Part shown: positions 18,666-34,838 of the stretch, piece after piece
How the letters are laid out: every line of letters begins with the position of its first letter
Numbering within the stretch: position 1 is the first letter of the stretch
DNA from: a virus
Length of the DNA: 34,939 nucleotides
Direction: 5' to 3' (one strand)
IMG/VR virus record: IMGVR_UViG_3300009702_000056
Span: 1-34,939 of that record
Program-made: the position numbers and the translations under genes
The notes under the pieces: model-generated
What the model was told of the DNA's origin: nothing
Database searches by the model: none
What the model saw: the letters and a program-made list of their open reading frames with translations, nothing else

Positions 18666-20843
18666 TTAAACGCCAGGGTTCTTGTAGGCGCCACGGAAAT
18701 CGATAGCAGCCACACCATAATCCAGGCGGACTTTCCACTGCATGCCATCGACATCGAAACCCTCCATGGAATCCAGGAATGGTTCACTATCGCCGTTCAA
18801 GAATGCCACCTCGATAACGGGTGCTTCGCCAGGCGCGGCAAACGTGTACCATTCTGTACCTGCAATGCGCGGAGAATCGACCACGTTACCAAATAGCCCG
18901 CGTGCCTTATTCGGCTTTTGCAGTTTGTTTGCCGTATCCGGATCGTATTGTGATTCGTTTATCACCCTGGCGTCGCCGCCTTTGTCCATGCCGCCCAACC
19001 AGATCGCAGGGCGCAGATCCAGGAACTCATTGCCAGAAATATCAGTCTGCTTTGCCATGGCAACGCGCGCCGCCTCGACTGTCGCCACGGTGACTGCCGC
19101 GCCAGCAGCAGCCAGGTTGCCATGGTTGGCATGAAACAGCACGATACCATCCGGCATCACAGGGTTGCTGGCCAGGAGCGCATAGACATCATTCTCGATG
19201 GTACGCCGCGCCGCTCTGCCCAACATTTGCGACAATCCAATAAACGCACCTAGATCATCATTAATGATGGTCTGTCTGCTGATATTGATGAGATTGCCTT
19301 TGGTTGTCGCGGTTATGGTGGCCTTTTCGCCATCCGGAATCGATTTGTTTTTGAACTCGGCGTTTTCTCCAAGCGCATCAATGTCACCAAATGACCCGGT
19401 ACGATAGCGGTTGTGTGCGCGGAAATCCGTCACCGAACCCGTTGCACAAAACTGGCTCCAGGTATCCGCCGCCTCGGCATAGGCCGCCTGCAATGTTTTA
19501 TGCATGGCATTTTCCAGCAGCACCGGGAAATCACTGGTCGATGTGGTAAATGCGCGCTTCACCATTTCCCGTTCGTCCAGACCTTTGTGAGACACGCCGG
19601 CACGCTCCAGGCAGGCTTTGGCAATTTCCGTCAGGCGCAAACCACGGAATTCATTAGCGCCATCGAATTTTTCCATGCCGGCACGGGCACGGATTGCCTG
19701 TACACCTGCATCGATAAATTTGTCACGCTGATCGGTGGTTACGGATGTATCACCACGCGATGTTTCTGCGTCGACGCGATCAGACCATGCTGCGAGCATC
19801 GTCTCTTTGGCGTCGGCGAGTTCTACGCCGCGTTCTACCAAGTCATTAGCAACCGTGTCGTCCACGCCTGCTTTTTTCGCAAATGTACGGATGCCTGATA
19901 CCCGCTCCCGTTCGGCCTTCAAAATTTCTTCTTTCTCTTTCATGCTCAATACCTTGTTATTACCAGTTTCTCCAATATCGCAGGATGACAACGATCTACT
20001 GCCGTCAGCCCTTGTTTCGTATGTACAACCATCGTTTTCCGCAGCCGCAATCAAGTCATCGAGCGATACACCCTCCAGCGTATCCGCGAACCCCTGCAAC
20101 CGCTCCACAGGTGGACAGTTGATTGATCCATCCAGAATCTGCGACACTGTTCCGGATTCGATGCCGGCCGCGCTGGCCATCGATGCAATAATGTCGGCGC
20201 GCAGATTGCTGTCTGTTTCCATACCGGAAATGGCGTCATCCAAAGCAGAAGCCAGGCTTGCGCCGCGATTGTTATTGACATCTGGCAACACAACCTGCAC
20301 TTCTCGTTTTTCTCCGTGGCCCTGATCACTGCGCACCTGGGCACCGGCATCGGCAGGAACGGATACTAACGACAGCTCTGCCGGCTCCCAGTCAGTCGCA
20401 CGGTAAACAGGCAGGCCATCGCGCAATTCTTCCTGTTTTTCCATTTTGTTGATGCTGTAGCCAACTGAGATGTTGCGAATAATGCCGTCCTTGACATCCT
20501 GTATAATAGGCTTCACTGCATCGCGTTCAGAAAATCTGACCGTTGCCCGGCCTTCATTGCCATCCAACCAGGCGCGCTCAACAACGCCAACGACATCATC
20601 AAGGCCCTGCCAATGGCTTGCCAGAAGAGGCGCACCATTATTCAAACGATCCATGCGGACTGCAGATTCATCCAGGCTGAGTTCTTCGATAAATTCTCTA
20701 TCCGCCCAGAAATCATAGCGCCGTACTTGCGCACCAGTGGTCCAGACCACATCTACAGTGCGCTGTTCCTCATCGAGTGTTTGCGGACTTACTGCAGACC
20801 GAAACTGCAGCTTTGCCGGAATTTTACGGGTTTGTATTTGCAT
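18666..20843 (-). CDS. Prohead protease fused to major capsid protein
   Basis: 725 residues. Residues ~1-190 form an HK97-type prohead serine protease with H77 (LLASHW) and S126 (IRNISVGYS). Residues ~200-320 form a linker with acidic and Gln-rich segments (MKEKEEILKAERERVSGIRTF), probably the scaffold/delta domain. Residues ~340-725 are the major capsid protein (DVYALLASNPVMPDGIVLFHANHGN, ...GMQWKVRLDYGVAAIDFRGA). Protease and capsid in one chain is an established arrangement in some phages; self-cleavage would release the mature subunit. It overlaps the portal gene by 20 bases. Confidence 0.9.
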   Translation of the reverse strand: MQIQTRKIPAKLQFRSAVSPQTLDEEQRTVDVVWTTGAQVRRYDFWADREFIEELSLDESAVRMDRLNNGAPLLASHWQGLDDVVGVVERAWLDGNEGRATVRFSERDAVKPIIQDVKDGIIRNISVGYSINKMEKQEELRDGLPVYRATDWEPAELSLVSVPADAGAQVRSDQGHGEKREVQVVLPDVNNNRGASLASALDDAISGMETDSNLRADIIASMASAAGIESGTVSQILDGSINCPPVERLQGFADTLEGVSLDDLIAAAENDGCTYETRADGSRSLSSCDIGETGNNKVLSMKEKEEILKAERERVSGIRTFAKKAGVDDTVANDLVERGVELADAKETMLAAWSDRVDAETSRGDTSVTTDQRDKFIDAGVQAIRARAGMEKFDGANEFRGLRLTEIAKACLERAGVSHKGLDEREMVKRAFTTSTSDFPVLLENAMHKTLQAAYAEAADTWSQFCATGSVTDFRAHNRYRTGSFGDIDALGENAEFKNKSIPDGEKATITATTKGNLINISRQTIINDDLGAFIGLSQMLGRAARRTIENDVYALLASNPVMPDGIVLFHANHGNLAAAGAAVTVATVEAARVAMAKQTDISGNEFLDLRPAIWLGGMDKGGDARVINESQYDPDTANKLQKPNKARGLFGNVVDSPRIAGTEWYTFAAPGEAPVIEVAFLNGDSEPFLDSMEGFDVDGMQWKVRLDYGVAAIDFRGAYKNPGV

Positions 20844-22227
20844 TCATATTTCCTGTGTTTTGATTTTGCAAACCGCCGTTGCCAGTTGTCTTGCGTGGAT
20901 CGCTGTCCAGAATCAAACCGAGAGCATCCAGAATCTCGTTGCTTTTTGCATATTCATTCAAAACCTGATCGGGATCGTATCCACGTTGCCGCAATGCCTC
21001 CGGCAATGTAGTCAGACCGGCACGAATGGCAGCGATGATTGGCGGCAATTCTTTTGCCGGATCGACCATCATGCGCGCCGGCGGCGTCCAGTCAACACTG
21101 GCGCCAGATAGCCCGGCAATATCGATAAACCATTGCGCCACACGATCGCACAGCCGCGGTATAAACAATTGCCAGCGCCAACTGTCGATGGATCGTCCAA
21201 ACTCCTGCCAGCCCATGCGTGCCGATGAGAAATTGACTTCAGACAGGTCGCCTGTCAGTGACTCGTAGGTGACGCCTAACCCAGCGGCAATGGCTTTCAG
21301 ATTTGCCTTTGTGTAGGGGCTATATTCAGCGGCAATTGGCGGGTTGGAAAACTCTATGGTGCGGCCCTGACGCATCAGATAAAGCGACCCGGATGTCAGC
21401 TCGGAAACATCGCTGAATTCTTCTTCAGTATCTTCAGGATCGTCCGTATAGATAAACCCGGCAAACAGATTCGCGAGCTTTTGCCTGTTAAGGAATACAT
21501 CCTCAAAAATATCGAGTTCGCGCAGGCGAATTATCACCGGTGCCAGCCAGGGCACGCCGCGTTCCTGGCCTGGCCGGTCGATACGAAACAAATGGATAAC
21601 TTCATTGGCTGGGACGCGGGAGTAAGAACTTGAAAGTCCGCCGAAATTGCGCCCGGATGTGCCAGGGTGATGTTTATACAGAAAATAAGCAACGCGCCTG
21701 CCGATCGCATCATACTCGATGCCGCGCTGGATGTAGCCACCGTTTCTCAGTGGTCCGTCGTTGTATTCATAGAAAAAATCCGGCTCCATCAGCTGCAACT
21801 GCATCGGCACGACCAGGCCGTCTTTTGTCTTGCGCGGCCGCAGACGAATCAGACATTCACCAGATTCAACCATGGCCCGCATTGCAGTCTGCTGTATGCC
21901 GAAGAAATTCGTCAGGCCCTGGGCGTCACACTGCGCCGTACCGGCCCATGCTTTCCACAGCGCCTCTATTGATTTGAGATTGCTCTTCCTGCGCGCGGAC
22001 CATTGCGCGCGGATACCCTGCCCGATGGTATTGTTGACAACCACAGACACGCCTTTCGCGGCCCAGGGGTTATTGCGGATGAGATCGCGGGAACGACTGC
22101 GAATAAGAGAGGGGTCATTGATGGCAGCATTGGCATCGGTCGCCGGTGTGCGCCAGTTTTTTGTTCTTGACGTGCGGCTGGCCGCGTCATAACGCCGCTT
22201 TTGCAAATTGACAACCTTGCCGCTCAC
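20824..22227 (-). CDS. Portal protein (lambda B family)
   Basis: 467 residues. It contains the lambda-portal core: GQGIRAQWSARRKS, EVIHLFRIDRPGQERGVPWLAP, ELDIFEDVFLNRQKLANLFAGF, LGVTYESLTGDLSEVNFSS and IPRLCDRVAQWFID. It forms the DNA entry dodecamer. It overlaps gpW by 4 bases and the protease-capsid gene by 20. Confidence 0.95.
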   Translation of the reverse strand: MSGKVVNLQKRRYDAASRTSRTKNWRTPATDANAAINDPSLIRSRSRDLIRNNPWAAKGVSVVVNNTIGQGIRAQWSARRKSNLKSIEALWKAWAGTAQCDAQGLTNFFGIQQTAMRAMVESGECLIRLRPRKTKDGLVVPMQLQLMEPDFFYEYNDGPLRNGGYIQRGIEYDAIGRRVAYFLYKHHPGTSGRNFGGLSSSYSRVPANEVIHLFRIDRPGQERGVPWLAPVIIRLRELDIFEDVFLNRQKLANLFAGFIYTDDPEDTEEEFSDVSELTSGSLYLMRQGRTIEFSNPPIAAEYSPYTKANLKAIAAGLGVTYESLTGDLSEVNFSSARMGWQEFGRSIDSWRWQLFIPRLCDRVAQWFIDIAGLSGASVDWTPPARMMVDPAKELPPIIAAIRAGLTTLPEALRQRGYDPDQVLNEYAKSNEILDALGLILDSDPRKTTGNGGLQNQNTGNMNANTNP

Positions 22228-22433
22228 AGCCCTTTCCCAGTCGCCAGCGTGACGAATCTTGACCGCGTTGCTGCAGGAGCTGCAATACCAAGCTCTGCGC
22301 GCATTGTATCCCGCAGGCGAATCATTTCCCCAAGCGAGTGATATGTAATCAGTCGATTGTTCAAGCGTACAGTCAGCGCACCCTGCGCAATTGCTGCTTC
22401 AAGCTTGTTTAGTTGGTCTGTGGAAAATGCCAT
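22224..22433 (-). CDS. Head-tail joining protein gpW
   Basis: 69 residues (lambda W is 68). FSTDQLNKLEAAIAQGALTV and YHSLGEMIRLRDTMRAELG match the gpW family almost throughout. It is a small alpha-beta protein plugging the portal. In lambda order W lies directly before B, as here. Confidence 0.9.
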   Translation of the reverse strand: MAFSTDQLNKLEAAIAQGALTVRLNNRLITYHSLGEMIRLRDTMRAELGIAAPAATRSRFVTLATGKGL

Positions 22434-22499
22434 GGATAAAGCATCTCATAGAACAATTGACAAAATAAGGCAAAAAATGACAAACGCAGTAATTTTTTT

Positions 22500-22766
22500 C
22501 TAATCATGTTTTTCGCCTTCTGTCTTCAAAATCCTATACACACTGCGTTCGGATATCCTGGCGCGTCTGGCGATCATTACCACACTTGCGCCATTCTCGT
22601 AAAGCTCCAGTATTTCCCGGTTGCGTTTTTCGTAATCGTTATGCGGAATATAAATGCGCTCACCACCAAGCCGCTGGACAAGCGACATCACCACATCACG
22701 CGCCATCCCATCATCGCCAATAACATCGCTGACAATATTGCACATTTCCTCTATCAATCCGCTCAT
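22500..22766 (-). CDS. Mor-like transcription activator
   Basis: 88 residues. The C-terminal helix-turn-helix (SVVMIARRARISERSVYRIL, about 63-82) and the preceding GGERIYIPHNDYEKRNREILE correspond to the Mu Mor/C family of activators. It starts in an ATGA overlap with the end of the large terminase gene. A Mor-type activator in the packaging operon suggests autoregulated late expression. Confidence 0.8.
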   Translation of the reverse strand: MSGLIEEMCNIVSDVIGDDGMARDVVMSLVQRLGGERIYIPHNDYEKRNREILELYENGASVVMIARRARISERSVYRILKTEGEKHD

Positions 22767-24808
22767 AGCAAGCTTGAATTCCTTTTCGGTTTTTTTACCT
22801 TTGGCTTGTTTGTTCTCTTTTTCAAGGCATCATCACGATCAACAACATTGCTATTCAGACCATGCTCAGCCGCCCAGGATGGCGGAGACGACCAATTGAA
22901 ACGGTCACTATTGAGACCAAGCTTCCAGCAACCAGCCAGGATGTAAACGCACAAATCGAGCGTCTCATTCCTGGGGCTGATTTTTTCCCACTTTCCATTG
23001 TCCTTTCTGACCTCTGCGCGCAACTCATCGAAAAAGCCCTCATCCAGCCACTGCGGGAAGTGCATGTACATACCGCCTGGCGATACCCGGCGCAATATCG
23101 ATGCAACAATGTCTTTAAAGAAATTTGTGTTCAGCAGAAATAGCGGGATCTCTTTCATTTGTCGCCCGGATGGATCTTTGCCATATGTCCCGATGATAGG
23201 CGATTCCATTTTTCCACCAGATCCGCCCTTGATCAGCATTACCTTGCCGGCCATCCCTGCCTTTCTGAGCTTTCTGTAAAACTGGTAAGCATTGTTTGTG
23301 GTGTCGCCCTCACCGCCAGTATCGATAACAGCTTTGTGAACCAGCATTTTTTTTCCTGATGATGTTTTGTAGCTGGCCATGATCACCCGTGGTATCAGCA
23401 ACTGCCAGTCTTCCAGGTAGCTGCCTGGGTTGATGCGCCTTTTTTCTGTTTCATTTTCCGTGAATGCAATATCGAATCTGTCGACTACCCATTGTTCCAA
23501 GCCGATGCCGATGGCATGCACCTGGACGACGAATCGCGACATTTTACCGCCCTGCACATCAACTGAGGCGATCAGAAGCCGGGCGTCATCTGGTACAAAG
23601 TAGCGGTCCAGATGTTCGACGCGCTCAGAAAGACCTTCCCTGTTTTCATTATCCACCAGGTGCTGCGGCATATACGGGGCACCAAAGCCAACATTGACCA
23701 CAGTTTTCAGATTTTCTTCCGACCCGGTTATGTCGTATTCACGATGGCTTTTCAGATATTTCTCCACGAGTGACGCCGGGTCTGAATAGGCTGCAAATAT
23801 GCCCGGAAACCAGAATGACGCTATCCTCCCGCCAACCGATTCACCAGTGATCTCGCCGTTTTCGATTTTGCAGCCTGCTGGCACCCATTTGCCGCCGGCA
23901 TTCATGCGACGTTTATGGTGTAAATCGATTTGGCAGCCATTCCGTGTTCATATGTATTTGACAGGAGTTGTCATAGCGGCAATTGTTGTCCCAAGTAAGT
24001 CGCGGTTATGCCCAAACATAAGACCACTCTCATCTGGTGGCGGCATGAAATATTCGTGACATTGTGGGCATTCAACATACCAACGACGCATATCTCCCAT
24101 GTTGAAAAGCGACAGAGCACCGCCGCATGGCGGCGCTTCATGCGGATGGTTTTTTTTCTTGCCTGAGTCTGTGATCTCGAATCCTGGCGACGTTTCCACC
24201 AGAGTCATGCCGCGGCTCAAATATTTAGCGGTGCGTTGCTGCGACAATGAGAAAGGCGACCCCTCTCCATCAACGTTCTGCGTCATCCTGTCGTAGTCTG
24301 TTATCAGCATATATTTCAACGGTTTCCCTGATATTTCATTGATCGATGGCCAGCGCTGGAATAAAATCGCCCCAGATTTAAAAACCTTGTCGTATGTATT
24401 ATCGCTTTTACTCCCAGGCGCCAACTCCATTTTCAGATCAGCACTATCTCTGAACGCGCGCTTTATGACCTGTGTATCAAAATCCCTGGCTGTCCCCTTG
24501 GTGGTTTGCATAATGAGAAAATCGGAAGGATCGCATTTGATTATGTATGCCATGGAGCAGGTCACCAGACCCTGGGTTTTCCCTGATTGCGCCGGACCAA
24601 CGAAGATGACCGCATCATATTTCCTGCTGCTAAGGCAGTCCATTGGCTCGATCATGTAAGGCGTCAACTCGGGATCCCATCGCTGAATCCCACCGCTTGC
24701 CGTGCGCACATTGACATACCGGCTTGCCGCTTCAGCCACGCTGATACGCTCAGGCGGGCGTATCATCTGCGCAATATCGCTCCTGATTGCTGACGCGGAT
24801 AATGTCAT
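22763..24808 (-). pseudogene. Terminase large subunit (gpA family) interrupted by in-frame TGA
   Basis: 681 sense codons in one frame, interrupted once by TGA at codon 287 (23950-23948). Before it: ATPase with FVGPAQSGKTQG (~69-80), KYMLITDYDRM as Walker B, and a zinc-type MRRWYVECPQCHEYF. After it: NGCQIDLHHKRRMNAGGKW, then the nuclease with LLIASVDVQGGK and HKAVIDTGGEGD. The local sequence VKYI-stop-TRNGCQI suggests a Cys at the stop (family pattern C-x4-C). Restart at ATG 23905 is possible but has no clear SD. Unless the stop is bypassed, packaging would fail and the prophage would be defective. Confidence 0.9.
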
Positions 24809-25296
24809 GCTGCATCCTCCAAAACACTAGCCCACTGCTCGCGAAGCGCATCGATGCGCTGTTCAACGCCAACAATGACATCAGGATCGATATTAAAATC
24901 ACGCTCCAGGATATCCGGCAATGTCTCAAGAATATGCAAGCCAGTCTGGGCAACTCTTGCCATTTCAGTACGAGCATCCGCAGCAGAAACCAGCAACCCG
25001 GCATCACGCTCAAATTTAATCCTGTCGTTTTCAGATTTATACCAATCGGACCGCTCCTTTGGCGTCATGGATGCAGGATCGTTAAGACCCTGCGATGCTG
25101 AAGTATCCGGAGCCAGGATAGCTTTTGCCGATGCACCGACAGGATAGACAGGATGCCCGCGGCGTTCACCAGAAGGATCAACAGATGCTTCACGCAGCCT
25201 CCGCTGCACAGTTTCCCTGGCAATATTGAATTCCCTGGATAGCTGATTAAGCGACCAGCTGAACCAGTCTTTCTGTGAAACGACAGTCGCAACCAT
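24805..25296 (-). CDS. Terminase small subunit, DUF1441 family
   Basis: 163 residues from ATG 25296. An N-terminal DNA-binding HTH (WSLNQLSREFNIARETVQRRL) is followed by DPASMTPKERSDWYKSENDRIKFE and the helical C-terminal region typical of DUF1441 (Nu1-like). It overlaps the large subunit start by 4 bases. It recognises phage DNA for packaging. Confidence 0.85.
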   Translation of the reverse strand: MVATVVSQKDWFSWSLNQLSREFNIARETVQRRLREASVDPSGERRGHPVYPVGASAKAILAPDTSASQGLNDPASMTPKERSDWYKSENDRIKFERDAGLLVSAADARTEMARVAQTGLHILETLPDILERDFNIDPDVIVGVEQRIDALREQWASVLEDAA

Positions 25297-25331
25297 AAAC
25301 AAAATATTCTATTATTTCAGTTTAATTTCAT

Positions 25332-25457
25332 TCACTTACGTGGACAATAAAAAGTAAGCTGAGACCCATAAGAGCACAAAAATTCAATTTTATCGCGGCC
25401 CTTTTTACCCGCATTTGCCAGTTCCAGGGAAGGACCCCGGGATTTATTAATCGACAT
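25332..25457 (-). CDS. Tiny conserved-looking protein, unknown
   Basis: 41 residues (MSINKSRGPSLELANAGKKG...CPRK). Its ATG is two bases after the stop of the upstream gene, consistent with coupling, and it ends with CSYGSQLTFYCPRK, a single Cys pair. Probably real by context, but too short to be sure. The rest of the gap to the terminase (25297-25331) shows nothing clear. Confidence 0.45.
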   Translation of the reverse strand: MSINKSRGPSLELANAGKKGRDKIEFLCSYGSQLTFYCPRK

Positions 25458-25459
25458 GA

Positions 25460-25900
25460 TCACAACCTGCCCCTGGCTGTCTTAAAAAAATCTGATGCGC
25501 CTGAATGATGATGCGCTCCTGCTGCACGCTCACCACTCACGGATCGCGTGTTAGTGGATGCGTCAACAGCATTGAGCAAACCAACATCACAAAGATGCCG
25601 TATGCCTCTTTCTGTGATTCTGTATGTATGCGCTTCTTTTCCTGATCGCCTGCACTTCCTATTGCCGCACTGCTGCAGATACTTCAGATGCTTGCCGGCA
25701 AGATCCGTGGCCCGCTTTGGTGCATCGGCATAGCGTTCATATTTCCAATCATATACCTCGGCGGCAACTTCCTTTGCTGTACTCCCCGGCATTTTCTTAA
25801 AGCCTAGCAGCAGCAGGTCTTGATGGCGATAGCGGCTTTTTGATTCGCTCAACGCAACAATTGCGTCTGCACTTCCTGAATTATTCATAACATCACCCAT
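25460..25900 (-). CDS. Winged-helix protein (possible phage regulator)
   Basis: 146 residues. The central HQDLLLLGFKKMPGSTAKEVAAEVYDW and RATDLAGKHLKYLQQCGNRKC ... AHTYRITERGIRHL show a winged-helix pattern. It sits between replication and packaging genes, a place where late regulators are often found. Function inferred from fold and position only. Confidence 0.65.
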   Translation of the reverse strand: MGDVMNNSGSADAIVALSESKSRYRHQDLLLLGFKKMPGSTAKEVAAEVYDWKYERYADAPKRATDLAGKHLKYLQQCGNRKCRRSGKEAHTYRITERGIRHLCDVGLLNAVDASTNTRSVSGERAAGAHHHSGASDFFKTARGRL

Positions 25901-25903
25901 TGA

Positions 25904-26878
25904 TCAAAACGAGATTTTTGATAACTTTTTTTCCTGCAGCCTTTCATTGACCAGCCTTTGCAGAGCTCCTCGATACTGCGGGAAATCCTCACGCTGATAT
26001 GCATCCCTGTATCCATGATAATTCGCCCATGAGCATAGCGAATTATCATCACGCGGTATCTTCGCCCAGTCTGGCAGGCGTTTATTACCAGGATCGAATT
26101 GGCGATCCCTAACAGTACTGGCCTTATTTCCATTCAACCGATCAAACAAACCTGGATCACGAAAATAGCTGATCAGTCTGCGAGACAGTTTTTCAGTCCA
26201 TTCACGCTGAGTGAATCTGCTGTTCTGTTGTGACCACCAATATCCGACAAAACCAGATACCCAGGCGCTGTCTATCCGATCCAAAGAAAACGATTTCCCA
26301 CCAGCCATAAACAGCAATGCCTTCAATTCATCCTCGCTTGGTTTCCAAGACAGCGGCATTGCAAATTTATCGTCCCTATTATTATTATTATTAATATATA
26401 TTATATTAGTTCTCCCAACCTCCGGCGTTTTGCTCTCCCAACCTCCGGCGTTTAATTTCTCTATGCTATTATTATTATTGGTCTTTTTTTCGTCTTTGCC
26501 TACCAACCTACCTCCCAACCTCCTCCCAAGCTCGTTTTTGACGGATTTATCCACGGGAAGATCTTCCGCAAAAAAAACGCGCACCAGTATCAACTTATTC
26601 CCTTCCCCGGATTTAGATTCACGACGCAACACACCGCAATTAACCAATCTGGAAACGGCATGCTGAATTTCCTTCATTGTCCAGACGATTAAATTCTTAC
26701 GCCTCCCGCTTTCCTGTCGCTCAGACAAATCAAGCGCCATTCCACCATAAGAAACAGCGCATTGCTTACCGATCAACCCTGTTCTTTTATCAGTCCGCTG
26801 CGCCAGATAGAAAAACACTTCCCTATCAATCACCTGCATAGCGCTTATTAACTTGTATTCAGCGGCAAGAATGCACAT
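25904..26878 (-). CDS. DnaT-like replication initiator / helicase loader
   Basis: 324 residues from ATG 26878, which overlaps the DnaB stop (TGATG). The N-terminal ~100 residues form a winged-helix DNA-binding region (VIDREVFFYLAQRTD, MALDLSERQ). The middle (~125-170) is low complexity with poly-Asn encoded by ATT repeats and contains the origin-like DNA repeats. The C-terminal ~110 residues match the DnaT domain (KPSEDELKALLFMAGG, WVSGFVGYWWSQQNSRFTQREW). It lies next to DnaB, as lambda O/P-type genes do, and probably directs helicase loading. Confidence 0.8.
   Translation of the reverse strand: MCILAAEYKLISAMQVIDREVFFYLAQRTDKRTGLIGKQCAVSYGGMALDLSERQESGRRKNLIVWTMKEIQHAVSRLVNCGVLRRESKSGEGNKLILVRVFFAEDLPVDKSVKNELGRRLGGRLVGKDEKKTNNNNSIEKLNAGGWESKTPEVGRTNIIYINNNNNRDDKFAMPLSWKPSEDELKALLFMAGGKSFSLDRIDSAWVSGFVGYWWSQQNSRFTQREWTEKLSRRLISYFRDPGLFDRLNGNKASTVRDRQFDPGNKRLPDWAKIPRDDNSLCSWANYHGYRDAYQREDFPQYRGALQRLVNERLQEKKLSKISF
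26377..26453. other. Candidate replication origin inside the initiator gene
   Basis: A 34-base stretch at 26377-26410 is A/T except for one G and includes ATT repeats. Directly beside it are two identical 20-bp direct repeats, TCTCCCAACCTCCGGCGTTT, at 26411-26430 and 26434-26453 with a 23-bp period. A further partial copy (CTCCCAACCTCC) is at 26512-26523, and a second ATT tract at 26467-26479. Iterons next to an AT-rich unwinding tract inside the initiator gene is the lambda ori plan. Confidence 0.65.
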
Positions 26879-28257
26879 CAGATATTCTGATTCGCCAAAC
26901 ACCGGAACCGGGTATATTGCCCTTCAAACAGCATCCTTACCGTCCCCTGCTTGCCATTACGATGCTTGCCAATTATCACCTCAGCAACGCCCGGGTCCGG
27001 CGTTTCAGGATTATAGACCTCATCCCTGTACAAAAACAAAATCAGATCGGCATCCTGCTCTATGCCTCCAGAGTCGCGCAAATCGGACATAAATGGCCGC
27101 TTGTTCGGCCTGGATTCCAGATTCCTGTTTAACTGCGATAGGGCAAAAACAGGAATATCCAACTCCTTCGCCAGGCGCTTTAGCCCGCGCGTAATTTCCT
27201 CGATCTGCTGATTGCGATTATCCCCAGATATCACGGCCATCAGTTGAATATAATCCACCATAATAGCGCCCAGTCCGTTTGGGAATTCATCTGCAGTCTC
27301 AGCCACCAGGCGCAACACACGACTGCGTATATCGCCAATTGAAAGCGACGGCGTATCATCGATGAATAAAGGCGCAGTGCCCAAACGTGAAATCGAAGAC
27401 GTAATCAGCGACCATTCATCATCCTGGATCTTCCAGGAATCCATCACATGCCGCAATGGAGTATCAGAATTAGACGACAACATACGCTGTGCAAGCTGCT
27501 CCTTTTGCATCTCCAGACTAAACACAGCGACAGGCAATCCTTGCCTGACTGCGACATCCTCAGCAATATTCAATGCAAACGACGTCTTCCCCATGGCTGG
27601 GCGCGCGGCAATTACCACCAGATCACCGCCACTGTGCCCGCCGGTTATCCGGTCAAGATCACAAAACCCTGACGGTAATCCACGAATGCCATCCTTTGGC
27701 GGATCGTTATAATCCGTCTCCATCTTGTCCACAACAGAAACCAGCACATCCCGGATCCGTGAAAAGCCACGCTTACCGCGTAGGCCTTCCTGCGCCAGGG
27801 CAAAGATACGGTTCTCCGCATCGCTGATAATAGCCCGGCAATCCCCGTCAGCCTGTCGCGCAGCTGCCGCCATCTCAGTGCCAACCTGTATGATCGTGCG
27901 CAATACAGATCTACCGCGCACAATCTCGGCATAAAATGCAACATTGGCCGCACTGGGTGTATCCCTAGCCAGCGTACCCAAATAAGCCAGCCCGCCGGCC
28001 TTATCCAACATTCCCTTCTTTTCCAGATGATCGGATACCGTCAACACATCGACAGGCGCACCAGAAGCCGCAACCTGGGCAATAGCATTAAAAATAATCT
28101 TGTGATCGTGCCGATAGAAATCCTCCGCAGATAACACCTCGCATACCTGCCCAACCGCAGAGCCATCCAATAACAGCCCACCAATCACACCATGTTCAGC
28201 CTGAATGAAATGTGGAGGAACCGGCTGTTGGTTATTGTCTATCGGTATGGCGACCAT
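26878..28257 (-). CDS. dnaB: Replicative DNA helicase DnaB
   Basis: 459 residues, normal for DnaB. The N-terminal domain starts around PHFIQAEHGVIGGLL. The RecA-like ATPase has Walker A ARPAMGKTS (~218-226), the hexamer motif EEITRGLKRLAKELDIPVF, MVDYIQLM as Walker B, and the C-terminal FALSQLNR ... GGIEQDADLILFLYR. It unwinds the phage replication fork. It is phage-encoded and lies beside its loader. Confidence 0.95.
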   Translation of the reverse strand: MVAIPIDNNQQPVPPHFIQAEHGVIGGLLLDGSAVGQVCEVLSAEDFYRHDHKIIFNAIAQVAASGAPVDVLTVSDHLEKKGMLDKAGGLAYLGTLARDTPSAANVAFYAEIVRGRSVLRTIIQVGTEMAAAARQADGDCRAIISDAENRIFALAQEGLRGKRGFSRIRDVLVSVVDKMETDYNDPPKDGIRGLPSGFCDLDRITGGHSGGDLVVIAARPAMGKTSFALNIAEDVAVRQGLPVAVFSLEMQKEQLAQRMLSSNSDTPLRHVMDSWKIQDDEWSLITSSISRLGTAPLFIDDTPSLSIGDIRSRVLRLVAETADEFPNGLGAIMVDYIQLMAVISGDNRNQQIEEITRGLKRLAKELDIPVFALSQLNRNLESRPNKRPFMSDLRDSGGIEQDADLILFLYRDEVYNPETPDPGVAEVIIGKHRNGKQGTVRMLFEGQYTRFRCLANQNI

Positions 28258-28379
28258 TGTGGATCAATTTCCAATTGCAAACTCGTATACCAAACCAGGC
28301 GGGCCCAGCCAACAGACCGGCGGCAGCGAAACTCATAAAACGCGATCACATGCGCATTCATATCATGCATCATCTGCAT
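28239..28379 (-). CDS. Small hypothetical protein
   Basis: 46 residues from ATG 28379 (MQMMHDMNAHVIAFYEF...SPYR). The ATG lies one base after the stop of the tiny lipoprotein-like frame and the gene overlaps the DnaB start. Basic and Trp-rich; function unknown. Confidence 0.45.
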   Translation of the reverse strand: MQMMHDMNAHVIAFYEFRCRRSVGWARLVWYTSLQLEIDPQWSPYR

Positions 28380-28380
28380 A

Positions 28381-28434
28381 TCAATTAACCTCATCCGGAC
28401 AACCGGCAGCAAACAACAGGAAGACAATAAACAT
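28381..28434 (-). CDS. Tiny lipoprotein-like peptide
   Basis: 17 residues (MFIVFLLFAAGCPDEVN). A hydrophobic segment ends in the lipobox AAGC at residues 9-12. It begins two bases after the upstream stop and ends one base before the next ATG, so the spacing looks like a translated frame. If real, it could be a lipid-anchored lysis-type peptide. It is very short and could be chance. Confidence 0.35.
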   Translation of the reverse strand: MFIVFLLFAAGCPDEVN

Positions 28435-28436
28435 GA

Positions 28437-28712
28437 CTATGATTTATAGCGGCTGCATGGCGTTTGGCATAGATCAATCAATCGCAAATAATAAATATCA
28501 CGCTTCAGCTTTCGTATCTTCGCGGAAATTTTGAATTGCATACCATATGCATCTTCAATTTCATTACGCTTAGCAGAAATGAATTTCTGCAGATTAATTT
28601 GATCTAACCGCAGGCCGTATAATCTCAATTCGGCAATAGAAATTCTAATAGGATCAGTATTTAAGATAATATTCTGCTCTGCAGGAGTAGATTTTGTTAC
28701 AAGCTCAGACAT
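28437..28712 (-). CDS. Hypothetical protein
   Basis: 91 residues from ATG 28712 (MSELVTKSTPAEQ). Mostly helical, basic towards the C-terminus (KISAKIRKLKRDIYYLRLIDLC). TGATATG links it to the preceding small membrane gene. No family recognised. Confidence 0.55.
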   Translation of the reverse strand: MSELVTKSTPAEQNIILNTDPIRISIAELRLYGLRLDQINLQKFISAKRNEIEDAYGMQFKISAKIRKLKRDIYYLRLIDLCQTPCSRYKS

Positions 28713-28713
28713 A

Positions 28714-28887
28714 TCAAATCCAATCATTAAAGAAATTGTCCAGCATATCGCTCAGCCTCCTGTCCATTAGATCGAACAAATGCGCGATGCCATATATTGG
28801 CGTACTGATCAGCCAGAACACAAAGAACAAAAACATGGCTGCAACAAACTTAACCATCATAATCACAATTCCTATCTTAAAATCCAT
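28714..28887 (-). CDS. Small single-pass membrane protein
   Basis: 57 residues from ATG 28887. A long hydrophobic helix spans about residues 5-35 (KIGIVIMMVKFVAAMFLFF...), followed by an amphipathic tail with acidic residues. It begins right after the stop of the LuxR-type gene (TGAATG). Early small membrane proteins often modify the host envelope or exclude other phages; function unknown. Confidence 0.5.
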   Translation of the reverse strand: MDFKIGIVIMMVKFVAAMFLFFVFWLISTPIYGIAHLFDLMDRRLSDMLDNFFNDWI

Positions 28888-29202
28888 TCAACAATCACTC
28901 CCCTCAATACGCCCGGAACGAACCGAGAAAGACCGCACCAGGCGCACCCGCCTGGCATCGATATGATTCGGGAACACCTGGGACAGCATCAACGCAACAA
29001 AAACAGACCGGATAAGACCCTGCAACAAAGCCAGATTCACCAGCTGAGCCATATTCCTGGCGCCAGTGCGTTCCCTGGCAAGCTCCATATGCTTCTGGAT
29101 TGTCCGCAGAGACCGGCATCGATTACCGGCAACAACCTTTTCAGACTTCCCATCGGAAATCATCTGCAAAATCTGAACCTGAGTTTTCGTTAAAACTGCC
29201 AT
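28888..29202 (-). CDS. LuxR-type HTH regulator
   Basis: 104 residues from ATG 29202, preceded by AAGGA. The first ~60 residues are a LuxR-type HTH (LTKTQVQILQMISDGKSEK... SLRTIQKHMELARERTG). The remaining ~40 residues include a hydrophobic segment (LLQGLIRSVFVALMLSQVF) and a basic tail. No sensory domain is present. It follows the Cro-like gene in the early leftward operon and may control the lysis-lysogeny switch or later genes. Confidence 0.75.
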   Translation of the reverse strand: MAVLTKTQVQILQMISDGKSEKVVAGNRCRSLRTIQKHMELARERTGARNMAQLVNLALLQGLIRSVFVALMLSQVFPNHIDARRVRLVRSFSVRSGRIEGSDC

Positions 29203-29236
29203 AATTTGCATCCTTTTTTACGAGAAAACACGAATA

Positions 29237-29446
29237 TTAATCCCTGCGGTCATCAGCTAAACTTTCATCGTTATAAAAAAACCTTTCCAGACGACTGACA
29301 TTACCGATCGTCGGATTTTTTATAGCACCTTGCGCAAACTTTGGAAGCCAGTGCTTATTCACACCTGCTTTCTTTGCTAGCTCGGCATATCTGCCATATT
29401 CTTTTGAGAGCACTCTAATGCGCTCTAATTTTTGATCAATGAACAT
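29237..29446 (-). CDS. Cro-like repressor
   Basis: 69 residues from ATG 29446. YGRYAELAKKAGVNKHWLPKFAQG is an HTH and the protein has no other domain. It is divergent from the CI-like gene, with 73 bases between them holding operator palindromes. First gene of the leftward early operon. No good SD is visible, so it may be weakly translated or leaderless. Confidence 0.65.
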   Translation of the reverse strand: MFIDQKLERIRVLSKEYGRYAELAKKAGVNKHWLPKFAQGAIKNPTIGNVSRLERFFYNDESLADDRRD

Positions 29447-29519
29447 GAGCAATACAATAGTAAATTTTTACTGCAATTACAAGCAAAATATTACTGACAA
29501 AGCCGTTTATCATTTCAGC
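29447..29519. promoter_or_regulatory. Divergent cI/cro promoter-operator region
   Basis: Contains the perfect palindrome AGTAAATTTTTACT (29459-29472). TTTGTCAGTA also occurs on the minus strand (29501-29492). A plausible leftward promoter is TTGCTT (minus, within 29486-29481) with TACTAT 18 bases on, overlapping the palindrome, so repressor binding would block it. Confidence 0.6.
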
Positions 29520-29879
29520 ATGAACGAAGAAGCGAAGAATTTTGCGAGAAATCTTAGGCTGCTGATGGAATATTACGGCCATAACCAGAAGACAATTGGC
29601 AAAAAATCGGGGCTTTCCCAAAAAACCATCAGCAACATGCTAAACCCTGGCGAAGATAGGGCTCCAAACCTGGAGAATGTCGCAAAAATCGCCAAAGCAT
29701 ATAAATTACAGACATGGCATTTACTAATTCCAAATGCCGGCATCGAATTGCTTACGAATATTTCTATAGAAAAGATCATCGATAACTTCATGCATTCCGA
29801 CGAACAAAGTCGTGACACAGTACTCCAGGTCTCTGAAAATGCGGCTAGGTATAATAAAAACCTAGCAAACAGGCGCTAA
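29520..29879 (+). CDS. CI-like repressor (HTH, no peptidase domain)
   Basis: 119 residues from ATG 29520. The HTH NQKTIGKKSGLSQKTISNML lies at about 20-39. The C-terminal ~55 residues are helical and contain no LexA-type peptidase, so induction cannot rely on RecA self-cleavage. Divergent from the Cro-like gene. It probably binds AGTAA-N4-TTACT-type sites at 29459-29472 and 29961-30002. Confidence 0.75.
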   Translation: MNEEAKNFARNLRLLMEYYGHNQKTIGKKSGLSQKTISNMLNPGEDRAPNLENVAKIAKAYKLQTWHLLIPNAGIELLTNISIEKIIDNFMHSDEQSRDTVLQVSENAARYNKNLANRR

Positions 29880-29960
29880 TATCAAATAAACATAATCTTA
29901 TATTTTCAAGCACATTCAGCATTCAACGCGCAATGTTTGTGCTATTCTTTGTTTGCGTGT

Positions 29961-29974
29961 AGTAATTTTTTACT
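29961..29974. promoter_or_regulatory. Operator palindrome OR1-like
   Basis: AGTAATTTTTTACT, a perfect inverted repeat (AGTAA-TTTT-TTACT) directly upstream of and touching the TTGACA box. Closely similar to AGTAAATTTTTACT in the cI/cro gap. Confidence 0.65.
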
Positions 29975-30002
29975 TGACATTTTATTGCAAAAGTAATTTA
30001 CT
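29974..30002 (+). promoter_or_regulatory. Rightward promoter of the int operon with second operator
   Basis: TTGACA (29974-29979), 17-base spacer and TTTACT (29997-30002) form a sigma70 promoter. A second palindrome, AGTAATTTACT (29992-30002), covers the -10 region. Repressor at both sites would silence the operon in the lysogen. Confidence 0.7.
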
Positions 30003-30039
30003 ACTTAACAACAGCCGATAAAAAACACAGGAGGCAGTC

Positions 30040-30216
30040 GTGAACAGCAATGAGCAATTACAAAAAAAATTACAGAAACTCGAGTATTGGTTCCAGCATG
30101 GCGATATGGGAAAGGGATCAGATTTGGTCTGCGCCCAATGCGAAGCAGAAGAGCTCCTGGAGCTGATTAAAGCAGCCAGACAGGAATTGAAGGAGGCACA
30201 AAATGAACCCGTATAG
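30040..30216 (+). CDS. Small hypothetical protein, first gene of the rightward operon
   Basis: 58 residues from GTG 30040, preceded by AGGAGG at 30029-30034. It is a charged helical protein with CxxC (VCAQCEAEELLELI). The next ATG lies inside its 3' end. Function unknown. Confidence 0.6.
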   Translation: MNSNEQLQKKLQKLEYWFQHGDMGKGSDLVCAQCEAEELLELIKAARQELKEAQNEPV

Positions 30217-30283
30217 ACTCGGCCAGGTGGCAGACGCCGCCCTGGTAATAATAATTTTCTTCATCATCGGTATCGCCTGGTGA
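30203..30283 (+). CDS. 26-residue membrane peptide
   Basis: MNPYRLGQVA then a hydrophobic helix (LVIIIFFIIGIAW). Strong SD AAGGAGG at 30190-30196. It ends 70 bases before the terminator hairpin, so it may be a regulatory small protein or leader peptide. Confidence 0.5.
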   Translation: MNPYRLGQVADAALVIIIFFIIGIAW

Positions 30284-30311
30284 AAAAACAACCCGTCGCG
30301 GCATACGGGCG

Positions 30312-30328
30312 GCCAGCGCAACGCTGGC
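30312..30328 (+). other. RNA hairpin upstream of the terminator
   Basis: GCCAGCG CAA CGCTGGC, a 7-bp perfect stem with a 3-base loop. It is not followed by a U-run. It lies 24 bases before the terminator stem and may act in antitermination or RNA stability. Confidence 0.5.
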
Positions 30329-30352
30329 AAAATGCCGCTTCCTCTTACCTTT

Positions 30353-30377
30353 GCCTGGCTTCGGCCAGGCTTTTTTT
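30353..30377 (+). terminator. Intrinsic terminator within the operon
   Basis: GCCTGGC TTCG GCCAGGC followed by seven T (30371-30377): a 7-bp GC-rich stem with a stable UUCG tetraloop. It stands between the two leader genes and the rest of the operon, 9 bases before the ATG of the next gene, so downstream expression depends on readthrough, antitermination or another promoter. Confidence 0.85.
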
Positions 30378-30386
30378 GGAGCAAAC

Positions 30387-30536
30387 ATGAACATCAGAAC
30401 CAAACGCATACACGACGGCAAAAAATACCGCGTAATCGCCAGACAGGGCAAATTCGCCTTTGTCGGCATTGCAAAAAACAAACGCCAGGCATTCAAACAG
30501 GCCGTGGCCGGATTATGGGAAATGGCAACAATATGA
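30387..30536 (+). CDS. Small basic hypothetical protein
   Basis: 49 residues from ATG 30387 (MNIRTKRIHDGKKYRV...WEMATI). The sequence has KYRVIARQGKFAFVGIAKNKRQAF, a basic beta-alpha unit. A GGAG motif lies just before the start. ATGA overlap with the next gene. Confidence 0.6.
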   Translation: MNIRTKRIHDGKKYRVIARQGKFAFVGIAKNKRQAFKQAVAGLWEMATI

Positions 30537-31057
30537 GCGTACTACACAACAGCAACATCCTTCGAACACTGGCGGAAAAAAACATGCTGATCTCTTGCAG
30601 GAGACTTGGCGAAATAATGGGCGTGTCATCATCGGAAGAAATAGACGCACTGTCGAAAAAACTCAGTTACATGGCTGGTAAAAACTATGTGCAAAGAGTC
30701 AAACCGCATTCCGGCGGAAAATGGACCTACAGGATAACCGATGCCGGCAAAAATCTCCTGGCAATCATGACTGGCATAGCAAACACGACCGCCATAATTA
30801 CAAAGCCAAAAAAGGAAGCAGAACAAGACGCAGAACCCCCCATCAGCGCAGAAGATTCTGAAATATTGAGCAGCCTGGATAACCTGTCTGCGCAGCTCGA
30901 AGCACCAGCAGTCAGCATAAAAAACCCGGAACTAAAACGTCATACGCTGCAAAAACTCGCGGCGCTCCTGGGAAAGCCATTGGCAAGAGTTCTCCTGGAA
31001 ATCGACCAGGACATTGAAAACTTAACAAAATCAATACCCGCAGAGGCATCAAGGTAA
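30533..31057 (+). CDS. Winged-helix protein with coiled-coil tail
   Basis: 174 residues from ATG 30533, inside the end of the preceding gene. Residues ~1-80 form a winged helix (SNILRTLAEKNMLISCRRLGE, VSSSEEIDALSKKLSYM, KWTYRITDAGKNLL). An acidic linker follows and then a helical C-terminus (RHTLQKLAALLGKPLARVLLE). Likely a DNA-binding regulator. Longer frames upstream lack an SD. Confidence 0.62.
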   Translation: MSVLHNSNILRTLAEKNMLISCRRLGEIMGVSSSEEIDALSKKLSYMAGKNYVQRVKPHSGGKWTYRITDAGKNLLAIMTGIANTTAIITKPKKEAEQDAEPPISAEDSEILSSLDNLSAQLEAPAVSIKNPELKRHTLQKLAALLGKPLARVLLEIDQDIENLTKSIPAEASR

Positions 31058-31061
31058 ACCG

Positions 31062-31346
31062 GTGGCGCACATGCATAAAACTAAGACTTGTAATGTCTGC
31101 TTCAAAGAATTACCAATTCAAAAATTCTCGACATACAAAGCGCGCGGCAGGGTATACCAGCGAAAAACCTGCAACGAATGCAGAAACAAATGCAGGCGGA
31201 AAATTGAATGCCTAAGATGCTTAGAAAAAAAATACCGGGAAACCATAGTAAACGGCATTTGCAAGGAATGCCGCAATTCCGATCCATTAATAACAGAACC
31301 AACCCCAGTAATGCAATTGGAGAAATATCTATGTACGGGAAGATGA
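31062..31346 (+). CDS. Double zinc-ribbon protein
   Basis: 94 residues from GTG 31062 (ATG 31071 also possible). Four CxxC pairs: CNVC (~10-13), CNEC (~37-40), CLRC (~50-53) and CKEC (~68-71), giving two zinc ribbons. The first (KTCNVCFKELPIQKFSTYKARGRVYQRKTC type) is similar to the N-terminal ribbon of phage HNH/endonuclease VII-like proteins, but no nuclease domain is present. It overlaps the muramidase start by 16 bases. Confidence 0.65.
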   Translation: MAHMHKTKTCNVCFKELPIQKFSTYKARGRVYQRKTCNECRNKCRRKIECLRCLEKKYRETIVNGICKECRNSDPLITEPTPVMQLEKYLCTGR

Positions 31347-31858
31347 TAAAAGACCTGATCAAACGGGAAGGAGGCTATATCGATAATCCATTGGATATAG
31401 GCGGCCCGACAAAATATGGCATCACCCAGCAAACATTGACAAATTACCTGGGCAGACACGCCACGGCAATAGATGTAAAAAACCTCAGCAAAAAAACAGC
31501 TGCGGAAATATACGAAATCTACTACTACAGAAAACCGAACATCGACGAATTGCCGGAATCGCTGCAACCGGTCATGCTCGACATGGCAGCCAACCACGGA
31601 CCGCGCACTGCAGTAAAAATCCTGCAAAAACTATTGATCGACATGGACCAGGACATCCGCCCAGACGGACTGATCGGACCGCACACGTTAAAATCCGTCG
31701 ATTACATCATCTACAAACGCGGCATTAAATACCTTTGTGAAATGCTCATAAAATCGCGCATTGCATTCTACGAACGCATAGTAAAAAACGACGACACTCA
31801 ACGCAAATTCCTGCCCGGCTGGATCAGGCGCGCCGAATCGTTCCTGGAGACAGCATGA
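31331..31858 (+). CDS. GH108 muramidase (endolysin)
   Basis: 175 residues from ATG 31331. The GH108 motif REGGYIDNPLDIGGPTKYGIT holds the catalytic Glu near residue 13; the C-terminal PG_binding_3-type part includes RPDGLIGPHTLKSVD and PGWIRRAESF. It cleaves glycan strands of peptidoglycan. No signal peptide, so it needs a holin (16543-16710). Unusually, it lies in the integrase operon, far from the holin and spanins, and may be the working endolysin because the M15 gene carries a stop. Confidence 0.88.
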   Translation: MYGKMIKDLIKREGGYIDNPLDIGGPTKYGITQQTLTNYLGRHATAIDVKNLSKKTAAEIYEIYYYRKPNIDELPESLQPVMLDMAANHGPRTAVKILQKLLIDMDQDIRPDGLIGPHTLKSVDYIIYKRGIKYLCEMLIKSRIAFYERIVKNDDTQRKFLPGWIRRAESFLETA

Positions 31859-32007
31859 AGAAAAAACAGAAACGACAGAGAAAACTCAGAAAATGCGAAC
31901 GCGGAATAAAGACAAAATCCAATAACCGCGGGCATAGATATGTGTTGACTATGCGTGGACTGTTGCCACTCAGACCACAACAAGTCCGCCAAAAAACATG
32001 GAGTTAA
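31855..32007 (+). CDS. Small highly basic protein
   Basis: 50 residues from ATG 31855, overlapping the muramidase stop by 4 bases. Very rich in Lys and Arg (MKKKQKRQRKLRKCERGIKT), suggesting nucleic-acid binding. No family recognised. Confidence 0.55.
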   Translation: MKKKQKRQRKLRKCERGIKTKSNNRGHRYVLTMRGLLPLRPQQVRQKTWS

Positions 32008-32058
32008 GTTATAAGCAAGACAGCCAGAGCACCAATCTTACTGAATTGTGACAGACAA

Positions 32059-32391
32059 ATGCAAAATGACGCACATCAACCAAACCAATATGGCGTATAT
32101 TCAAAAACAAATGCCGAATGCATCGAAGTAAAAAACAGCAGGAGCTACATAAAAATCTACTTCCTGCAACTGCAGGACGGATGGATAGCAGCAACTTCAC
32201 TAGAGGCAAGGAGCACAGAAGGATTCACATCACCATTATCTAAGCGATTCGGACTGCTCAAAACAAAGCAACAAGCTTTCGACCACGAAATGAGACGTAT
32301 CAAAAAATATGCATCCCTGGATAATGCGTTGATCCTAAGAATAAAAGAAAAATTCCTGCAGTCCACCATCAAGCAGATGGAGCTCTTCTGA
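32059..32391 (+). CDS. Hypothetical protein
   Basis: 110 residues. Short beta strands in the middle (SRSYIKIYFLQLQDGWIAATS) and a helical basic end (LKTKQQAFDHEMRRIKKYASL). Its stop is followed after two bases by the next ATG. Function unknown. Confidence 0.58.
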   Translation: MQNDAHQPNQYGVYSKTNAECIEVKNSRSYIKIYFLQLQDGWIAATSLEARSTEGFTSPLSKRFGLLKTKQQAFDHEMRRIKKYASLDNALILRIKEKFLQSTIKQMELF

Positions 32392-32393
32392 CC

Positions 32394-32594
32394 ATGAACC
32401 ACCTGATCAGCATAGACGATCTGAAAACTGCGACAGGCTACAGCAACACAGCAGACGTCGAACGCTGCCTGCAAAAAAACGGTATCCCGGTGATCTACGG
32501 CAAAAAAGGACATATATTCACCACCTTGGACGCAATTAACAAGGCCCTGGGCATAGATGCCGGACAGCAACAGGAAAAAATCCAACTACTTTAA
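32394..32594 (+). CDS. DUF4224 protein, excisionase-like
   Basis: 66 residues. ISIDDLKTATGYSNTADVERCLQKNGIPVIYGKKGHI is a small winged-helix/MerR-like pattern like DUF4224, often encoded near integrases. The size and place, three genes before int, fit an excisionase or directionality factor. Inferred. Confidence 0.6.
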   Translation: MNHLISIDDLKTATGYSNTADVERCLQKNGIPVIYGKKGHIFTTLDAINKALGIDAGQQQEKIQLL

Positions 32595-32611
32595 AATCAA
32601 CGGAAACTACC

Positions 32612-33439
32612 ATGAACACACACATTTGCATTTACCACAAAGATTGCGCAGACGGGTTCGGTGCAGCACTGGCATTTAAACTGCATGCTGAAAAGCGTCA
32701 AATAAACGCCGAATTCATACCGGCTCATTATGGCGATCCAGCACCAGAAAACATTGATGGAAAGCGCGTGATAATACTCGATTTCAGTTACCCGCGCAAC
32801 GTGCTCCTGGACATGGAAAAAAGAGCCAGATCACTATTGGTAATCGATCACCACATAACAGCGGAAAAAGACCTGAAAGGCCTGGAATATTGCATATTCG
32901 ACCAAAGCAAATCAGGTGCAGTTCTGGCATGGGAGCATTTCCACACAAGCGACGTTCCTGATCTTTTTCAATATATTCAAGACAGGGATCTATGGCTTTG
33001 GGATCTACCATATAGCAAAGAAGTATCCGCCGGCCTGGAACTATTGGAAAAGAACTTCGCGCTTTGGAAGCTTCACTTACCGCCATATGGCGTGGAAGCA
33101 TTAATAAACAGAGGCCGCATAGTTCTGAAATACCAGCAAAAGCAAGTCGAAAAAATAGTTTCGAGATGCAACGGAACGGAAAATATTGCCGGATATAACG
33201 TGCCCTGCGTCAACACCACAACCATGATCAGTGAAACAGGACATGAACTGGCAAAAGGCCACCCGTTCGCAGCAATGTATTTCGAGACAGACGACAAACG
33301 CATATACTCACTGCGATCCGCACCAGATGGAATCGATGTGTCTGCAATAGCAAAAAAATTCGGCGGCGGCGGACACTTCCATGCTGCAGGTTTTTCAATT
33401 CCAAAGCCAAACATAGCCCTGCAATTGCCGTTGGAATGA
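32612..33439 (+). CDS. DHH/DHHA1 phosphoesterase
   Basis: 275 residues. Motifs: HKDCADGFGAA (~9-19), VIILDFSYP (~53-61), VIDHH (~77-81) with the DHH metal site, and a DHHA1 C-terminus with GGGGHFHAAGF (~251-261). Such enzymes hydrolyse oligonucleotides or cyclic dinucleotides such as c-di-AMP or pGpG. Its substrate here is unknown. It lies in the regulated rightward operon beside int. Confidence 0.88.
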   Translation: MNTHICIYHKDCADGFGAALAFKLHAEKRQINAEFIPAHYGDPAPENIDGKRVIILDFSYPRNVLLDMEKRARSLLVIDHHITAEKDLKGLEYCIFDQSKSGAVLAWEHFHTSDVPDLFQYIQDRDLWLWDLPYSKEVSAGLELLEKNFALWKLHLPPYGVEALINRGRIVLKYQQKQVEKIVSRCNGTENIAGYNVPCVNTTTMISETGHELAKGHPFAAMYFETDDKRIYSLRSAPDGIDVSAIAKKFGGGGHFHAAGFSIPKPNIALQLPLE

Positions 33440-33702
33440 TAGCCGCAGTCAACATAGAGCAACAGTGCGTATGGGGAATAGGAGAAACAGAAGAAGAGGC
33501 GCTTGAGGATGCAAAAAAAGAACTGGATGGCAAGTCGGAGAGATTACAAAAAATCGGCCTCGGAGAAATTCATTTTGTCAGGATCAGGAAAAACGCAAAA
33601 CTCGAATACTGTGGTGAAGTGCTATTCAAATCCTGTATATTGAAAAAAACCTTGCCAAAACCAGCAGACAATACACCGAACCAGGCGGACATATTCCAGT
33701 GA
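33436..33702 (+). CDS. Hypothetical protein
   Basis: 88 residues starting in an ATGA overlap with the phosphoesterase. VWGIGETEEEALEDAKKELDG is an amphipathic alpha unit. Its end overlaps the integrase GTG start by 4 bases, so it is coupled with both. Confidence 0.58.
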   Translation: MIAAVNIEQQCVWGIGETEEEALEDAKKELDGKSERLQKIGLGEIHFVRIRKNAKLEYCGEVLFKSCILKKTLPKPADNTPNQADIFQ

Positions 33703-34823: not shown

Positions 34824-34826
34824 ATA

Positions 34827-34837
34827 TTTGTCAGTAG
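34827..34837 (+). promoter_or_regulatory. Integrase arm-type repeat, right copy 1
   Basis: TTTGTCAGTAG, five bases after the int stop codon (TAA 34821-34823). Same orientation as the left copies. Confidence 0.65.
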
Positions 34838-34838
34838 A

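Follow-up and report, generated by a model that had tools for sequence, protein, structure and literature searches.

We identified, in the linker-coding part of a phage initiator gene, a region (26376-26534) that is very probably the replication origin of the temperate phage to which the gene belongs. The sequence gives good support to an in-gene iteron origin that would work as in lambda. Because that layout is already known from lambda, ours is a further case; what it adds is an extension of the layout to a DnaT-type initiator and a phage-encoded DnaB, the host being probably one of the Methylococcales. Coordinates refer to the window, by which we mean the whole stretch analysed, a virus record (IMGVR_UViG_3300009702_000056) of 34,939 bases.

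We favor an origin because the repeat found there goes beyond synonymous shuffles, because the record's best repeat abuts its least stable 34-mer, and because five cores fall within 123 bp. The reading also follows from a repeat pair in the related gene L132, placed as ours is, from an array in L131, from the counts of a survey in which lambda O itself passes, and from a DnaT domain that begins right after the AT tract with a phage DnaB gene next door. Against it stand the lack of a convincing dyad, the presence of just two perfect 20-mer copies, the single recognizable relative of the initiator, and the 5 of 22 surveyed initiators (L131, L154, L161, JY37 and Ld3) that miss p 0.01, as do L155 and L133.

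The initiator gene and its neighbors

The genes and domains on which the argument depends are as follows.

25904-26902, minus strand: replication initiator ORF, 332 codons from the GTG at 26902
26513-26878, minus strand: initiator N-terminal region, presumed DNA-binding winged helix
26171-26365, minus strand: DnaT domain (PF17948), aa 180-244, E 7.7e-07, 29.2 bits (cut-off 25)
26878-28257, minus strand: phage replicative helicase of DnaB type, immediately upstream of the initiator, which it overlaps
24805-25302: terminase small subunit gene, just downstream of the initiator and about 1.1 kb from the repeats

From our reading of the sequence, the likelier start of the initiator is the ATG at 26878, which overlaps the TGA stop of the helicase gene and gives a protein of 324 aa. 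We call this protein a replication initiator on the basis of profiles, namely DnaT and PHROG matches, together with the adjacent DnaB gene. DnaT was the sole domain above the cut-off in a Pfam scan; PHROG replication-initiation matches were weak to moderate (best 1.6e-06), with weak ones across aa 74-175 (E 0.003 and 0.009), and solved DnaT structures matched at E about 0.1 only. Scanned alone, the N-terminal part had no Pfam model above the cut-off, and AlphaFold2 predictions from single sequences were uninformative (mean pLDDT 36.0 and 39.6); we infer a winged helix from the protein's own sequence and from how other initiators are built. Among the ten record proteins scanned, none was recognized as a loader of P or DnaC type.

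Two further features of this neighborhood were recorded. One is an inverted repeat at 26015-26049, toward the 3' end of the initiator gene (ATGATAATTCGC), with perfect 12-base arms and a loop of 11 bases. The other is a small minus-strand gene (28888-29211) with a LuxR-type HTH (PF00196, E 1e-06; PHROG 'sigma factor', 6.9e-08), which sits close to where the leftward early genes begin; a consensus promoter scan of 28700-30400 returned no leftward promoter.

A repeat array beside the least stable DNA of the record

In transcriptional order, the putative origin consists of a distal trio of boxes 11-12 bp apart, a 65-bp step, a proximal pair of iterons at 23 bp, and an AT tract.

26500-26534, minus strand: distal group, a trio of GGAGGTTGGGAG-like boxes at intervals of 11-12 bp, of which one is exact and two have 2 mismatches
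26466-26477, minus strand: second trinucleotide tract, TAATAATAATAG, on the upstream side of the repeat pair; the record's second longest TAR run
26434-26453, minus strand: iteron copy, AAACGCCGGAGGTTGGGAGA on the coding strand
26411-26430, minus strand: iteron copy, 23 bp from the other copy and adjoining the AT tract
26376-26410, minus strand: AT tract and presumed DNA unwinding element, (TAA)5TAG on the coding strand; least stable 34-mer

A preliminary description of this DNA had drawn attention to two identical 20-bp repeats that are spaced by 23 bp and fall in different frames, beside a 34-base AT tract and near partial copies, and each of these observations holds. The repeat TCTCCCAACCTCCGGCGTTT is exact at both places, its copies start at gene offsets 449 and 472 on the coding strand, and the tract (26377-26410; 97% A+T) touches the first copy. 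Nearby, CTCCCAACCTCC is exact at 26512, and degenerate copies with 2 mismatches lie at 26500 and 26523; TRF also reports a repeat at 26499-26533. The array thus has five boxes, more than the two plus a partial copy first described. A 12-base core, defined from the three exact copies so that the two further matches are degenerate, was searched on both strands of the whole record with up to 2 mismatches: all 5 matches fall in 26412-26534 on one strand, whereas 1.9 would be expected by chance in the record.

The same description had proposed that the repeat is not explained by the protein, which our shuffles bear out. When the initiator gene was shuffled so as to keep its protein and codon set, the observed repeat score of 20 was never reached (mean 9.7, maximum 13, n=200; maximum 15 in a separate run of 100). 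The repeat pair, spaced 23 bp, is not a product of chance, and it is the record's best at spacings of 16-100 bp when low-complexity repeats are excluded. The dyad within the 20-mer amounts to 5/7 pairs at best (shuffle p 0.012), with none in a 32-nt context; the identical script gave 7/9 pairs for lambda iterons.

The least stable 34-mer in the whole record is 26376-26409, at -27.2 kcal/mol against -32.5 for the next, and the least stable 50-mer is 26363-26412; at 100 bases the AT-tract region is absent from the record's six least stable segments. Runs of at least three TAA/TAG triplets occur four times in the record, and the two longest bracket the proximal pair. The idea that the poly-Asn linker is a by-product of the AT tract fits, since the tract is read in codons as (AAT)n; in Elizabethkingia phage TCUEAP2, too, AT-rich DNA at this position encodes an N-rich segment of the protein. 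We also considered a DnaA-box-like TTATCCACG at 26547-26555 and dropped it, the record having 10 near-matches where 7.8 are expected.

These data bear on two other accounts of the repeats. They might have arisen recently by tandem duplication of 23 bp in a linker under little constraint, with (AAT)n tracts made by slippage, and be neutral and without function: the two 23-bp units differ at 2 positions only, the flanking (TAA)n tracts resemble microsatellites, and linkers tolerate change. We consider this very unlikely, as inserting 23 bp changes the reading frame and the DnaT domain that follows is nevertheless intact; moreover, a third exact core and two degenerate ones lie upstream, and other initiators carry arrays of the same spacing and different sequence. 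Alternatively, since direct repeats about two helical turns apart suit repressors too, they might be operators for autoregulation of the initiator or of a regulator, with no origin. The repeats, however, are more than 400 bp inside a coding region and next to the least stable DNA, and no copies occur near the putative early control region between divergent regulator genes, which makes operators an extremely improbable account.

Relatives of the initiator

Among 311 Methylococcales genomes we found one relative of the initiator, L132 (E 2.1e-19), with 47 of 123 residues identical across the linker and DnaT part. Its linker carries GGGTGTTGACTTAAATCAACA and GGGTGTTGACTCAGATCAACA, 21 bp apart and starting at a KDEKK motif that the window protein has too; this pair is unlike ours in sequence and the same in place. 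L131, from Oceanospirillum, joins an N-terminal domain like that of many phage O-like proteins to a DnaT domain, and between the two it has five related palindromic copies.

Other searches for kin were negative within their scope. No close relatives of the initiator appeared in phages (one search gave chance-level rows only, E 2 to 7), in viral contigs or in genome contigs, and none of its linker and C-terminal part in plasmids; megablast of 20000-34939 against phages gave nothing, and the exact 20-mer was found nowhere else in viral contigs. A two-sequence profile run over 369 genomes of the class without a positive control also gave nothing, as did L131 as a query against viral contigs, and phmmer detected no initiator relative at 16 viral loci with a related DnaB. 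When the whole window protein was compared with a profile of 16 O-like proteins, its N-terminal domain gave no match. An alignment of the window protein with L132 matched the O-like proteins in the C-terminal part only, a match we set aside as circular because L132 stands in both alignments.

The surroundings of these genes bear on whether the repeats could instead be packaging recognition sites, of pac or cos type, for the small terminase encoded at 24805-25302. Packaging sites often lie in or near the small terminase gene, which here is about 1.1 kb off, and the L132 initiator is likewise adjoined by a gene that by eye reads like a small terminase. In 15 annotated phage regions, however, no gene adjoining the initiator is named terminase (the neighbors are helicase, loader, P, other names and several hypothetical proteins), though most carry an in-gene array, and an abutting least-stable tract would be needless at a packaging site. 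We therefore regard packaging sites as very unlikely indeed.

In-gene repeats are frequent in related initiators

To place the array in context we applied a repeat test (spacing 18-26 bp, 100 synonymous shuffles per gene, smallest attainable p 0.0099) to 22 initiators. The survey drew on 17 phage-record regions, 15 found by tblastn with L131 and one with L132, plus lambda as a positive control; the 16 found by tblastn were picked for diversity without regard to repeats. The smallest attainable p was reached by 17 of the 22 initiators, by none of 55 other ORFs from the same loci and the window (a mechanical, uncurated set of at least 180 codons) and by none of 14 genes that we read as cellular DnaT from length and sequence. 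Among the 22 are near-duplicates (two Vibrio cyclitrophicus phages; Pmp11 and Aaphi23) as well as five in which repeats had been seen beforehand (the window, L131, L132, L135 and L161); the phage genes fetched blind pass in 14 of 16 cases.

The 17 passing arrays all fall inside codons 98-170, and their spacing is 23 bp in 13, 22 bp in three and 21 bp in one. Lambda O passes at codons 116-129, and the steps between its annotated iterons are 20, 24 and 23 bp. The five that miss do so to different degrees: L154 at p 0.02, L131 at p 0.05 (significant with wider spacings), JY37 at p 0.12 (p 0.010 with 45-bp spacing), Ld3 at p 0.14, and L161 at p 0.25 (0.02 with wider spacings). Two phage-like genes left out of the 22 were tested later (L155, p 0.28; L133, p 0.02 at 22-bp spacing), and including both gives 17/24. 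L137, L156 and L157 were left out because they read like cellular DnaT genes, and they have no repeat at 18-26 bp. The cellular set does not include L136, L151 and L153, in none of which repeats go beyond shuffles; L158 gave no ORF. The 40 bases 3' of the array are richer in AT than the gene on average in 17 of the 22, and not so in TCUAN1, Ab9, L154, Ld3 and Aaphi23.

It seems from these comparisons that placing the origin in the initiator gene is common among phages with related initiators. The survey also suggests a computational rule for calling origins in uncultivated phages, that of 21-23-bp repeats beyond synonymous shuffles inside an initiator gene.

A shared element downstream of the iterons

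The comparison further points to a shared element downstream of the iterons in many phage initiators. O-like initiators such as those of TCUAN1, CF63a, 118970_sal3 and Ab9 resemble ours in having 22-23-bp iterons after the N-terminal domain, although that domain cannot be aligned to the one in the window protein. They differ in what comes after the array: many O-like genes have a TTACAGAGATTAC-type element (AGANTAC in steps of 10-13 bases), whereas that position is taken by a (TAA)n tract in the window and by an AT-rich tract with TAATAATAG in TCUEAP2.

AGANTAC element: L131 (gene nt 604-640), L135, L165-L171, L173-L179 and most of L182-L261

At least two AGANTAC motifs are present in 15 of the 16 phage genes, the exception being TCUEAP2, and also in L131 and L135. 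The motif is absent from the window, L154, L155 and L161; L132 and lambda have one each, elsewhere. In 14 of these 15 phage genes the motifs form a cluster in steps of 10 to 13 bases that starts after the iterons; in Ld3 they are scattered. Because AGANTAC occurs in all three frames across genes, it is conserved as DNA, beyond what a T-E-I-T peptide alone would account for.

Scanning the viral contigs of IMG/VR with TTACAGAGAWTACNWCAGAGAWTAC gave at least 120 loci. Among the 80 examined, 74 have the element in a same-strand ORF of at least 100 aa, and 25 are non-redundant. The 18-26-bp repeat test was passed at p 0.01 by 21 of these 25, although in two of them (L188 and L239) the element itself supplies the repeat and in L258 the repeat is at another place; L199 and L229 probably have an initiator truncated at the edge of the contig, and there the test was applied to a different frame. 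In 18 of the 25, 23-bp iterons end 1-59 bases ahead of the element. In the literature covered, the motif string ACAGAGATTAC occurs in six papers, all with titles on other subjects.

Comparison with lambda and a proposed mechanism

The preliminary description had called the origin lambda-like, a term that holds for the layout of an in-gene iteron origin and fails for membership in the lambda O family. In lambda, ori lies in gene O, with mid-gene iterons at 20-24 bp spacing and an AT-rich tract directly 3', as in the window; O binds these iterons, and the neighboring 40-bp A+T-rich region opens under negative supercoiling (PMC7466680, PMC5043065). Two iterons and the adjacent AT-rich region form the minimal unwinding fragment, according to PMC7466680, which cites Dodson 1986.

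There are differences too. The C-terminal domain of the window protein differs, being a DnaT domain, its repeats lack a convincing dyad whereas the lambda-type iteron is an inverted repeat of about 19 bp, the phage has its own DnaB whereas the lambda loader P recruits that of the host, and the gene order is helicase and then initiator. PF04492, which we take to be the Pfam profile of the lambda O N-terminal domain, matched neither the whole initiator nor its N-terminal part, in a scan run without lambda O as a control. Judged from its sequence, the window initiator is not in the lambda O family, given the missing profile match, the differing C-terminal domain, repeats without the iteron dyad, the phage's own DnaB and no P recognized among the ten proteins scanned.

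Outside the enteric phages, a close parallel by description is the Francisella prophage vB_FhiM_KIRK, for which a lambda-like origin has been predicted at ORF43, with four iterons in an AT-rich region; ORF43 is called there a putative CII replication protein, and the likeness is one of description only (PMC7924643). In the literature covered, which leaves out most subscription journals, we found nothing on DnaT with iterons or on Methylomonas prophage origins.

By analogy with lambda, we envisage that the initiator's N-terminal domain would bind the repeats and boxes, the repeats lying on one face of the DNA since they are two helical turns apart. The resulting nucleoprotein complex, with negative supercoiling, would melt the abutting AT tract (26376-26410), and the C-terminal DnaT domain might then hold the single-stranded DNA and deliver the phage's own DnaB. 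Transcription that reads leftward across the two genes, helicase and initiator, would pass over the origin and might aid its opening, as in lambda. The window has lambda's minimal unwinding set plus three extra boxes.

A further, speculative suggestion concerns the trinucleotide tracts. Bacillus oriC contains DnaA-trios, which are 5'-TAG repeats, and a TnnT ladder on the complement is bound by DnaD (PMC10201434). The likeness of the TAA/TAG tracts in the window to this DnaA-trio is our own reading. Though we think it rather improbable, (TAA)5TAG and (TAA)3TAG around the iteron pair might be sequence-specific single-strand elements, DnaA-trio-like, read by the initiator's DnaT domain, which would determine the strand that receives the phage helicase. 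In a wider version of the idea, a 23-bp iteron code that varies might be coupled, within one gene, to a strand-loading element that many phage initiators share.

Ends of the record and probable host

Both ends of the record are an identical 52-base repeat (1-52 and 34888-34939). We read these ends as the 3' half of a tRNA-His (GTG anticodon), forming putative attachment sites beside the integrase gene; ARAGORN reported no whole tRNA in the record.

33699-34823: integrase gene, adjoining the end repeat

A 35-base piece of the end sequence has at least 112 matching stretches in genome contigs, and among the matches listed (80 looked at) the commonest named group, by titles, is Methylomonas, Methylobacter and other Methylococcales. 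The record is a provirus in a bacterial genome, probably that of a methane-eating bacterium of the Methylococcales.

Near both ends, ATTTGTCAGTAG repeats lie on one strand (93-104, 146-157, 34826-34837 and 34838-34849), two of them in exact tandem; with 7 matches in the record against 2.5 expected, they are candidate integrase arm-binding sites. Elsewhere, a 689-codon ORF (13093-15162) holds two 195-base tandem copies (13769-14158) that are 90% identical. Since 195 is a multiple of three, this is a protein repeat, and the ORF perhaps encodes a tail fiber.
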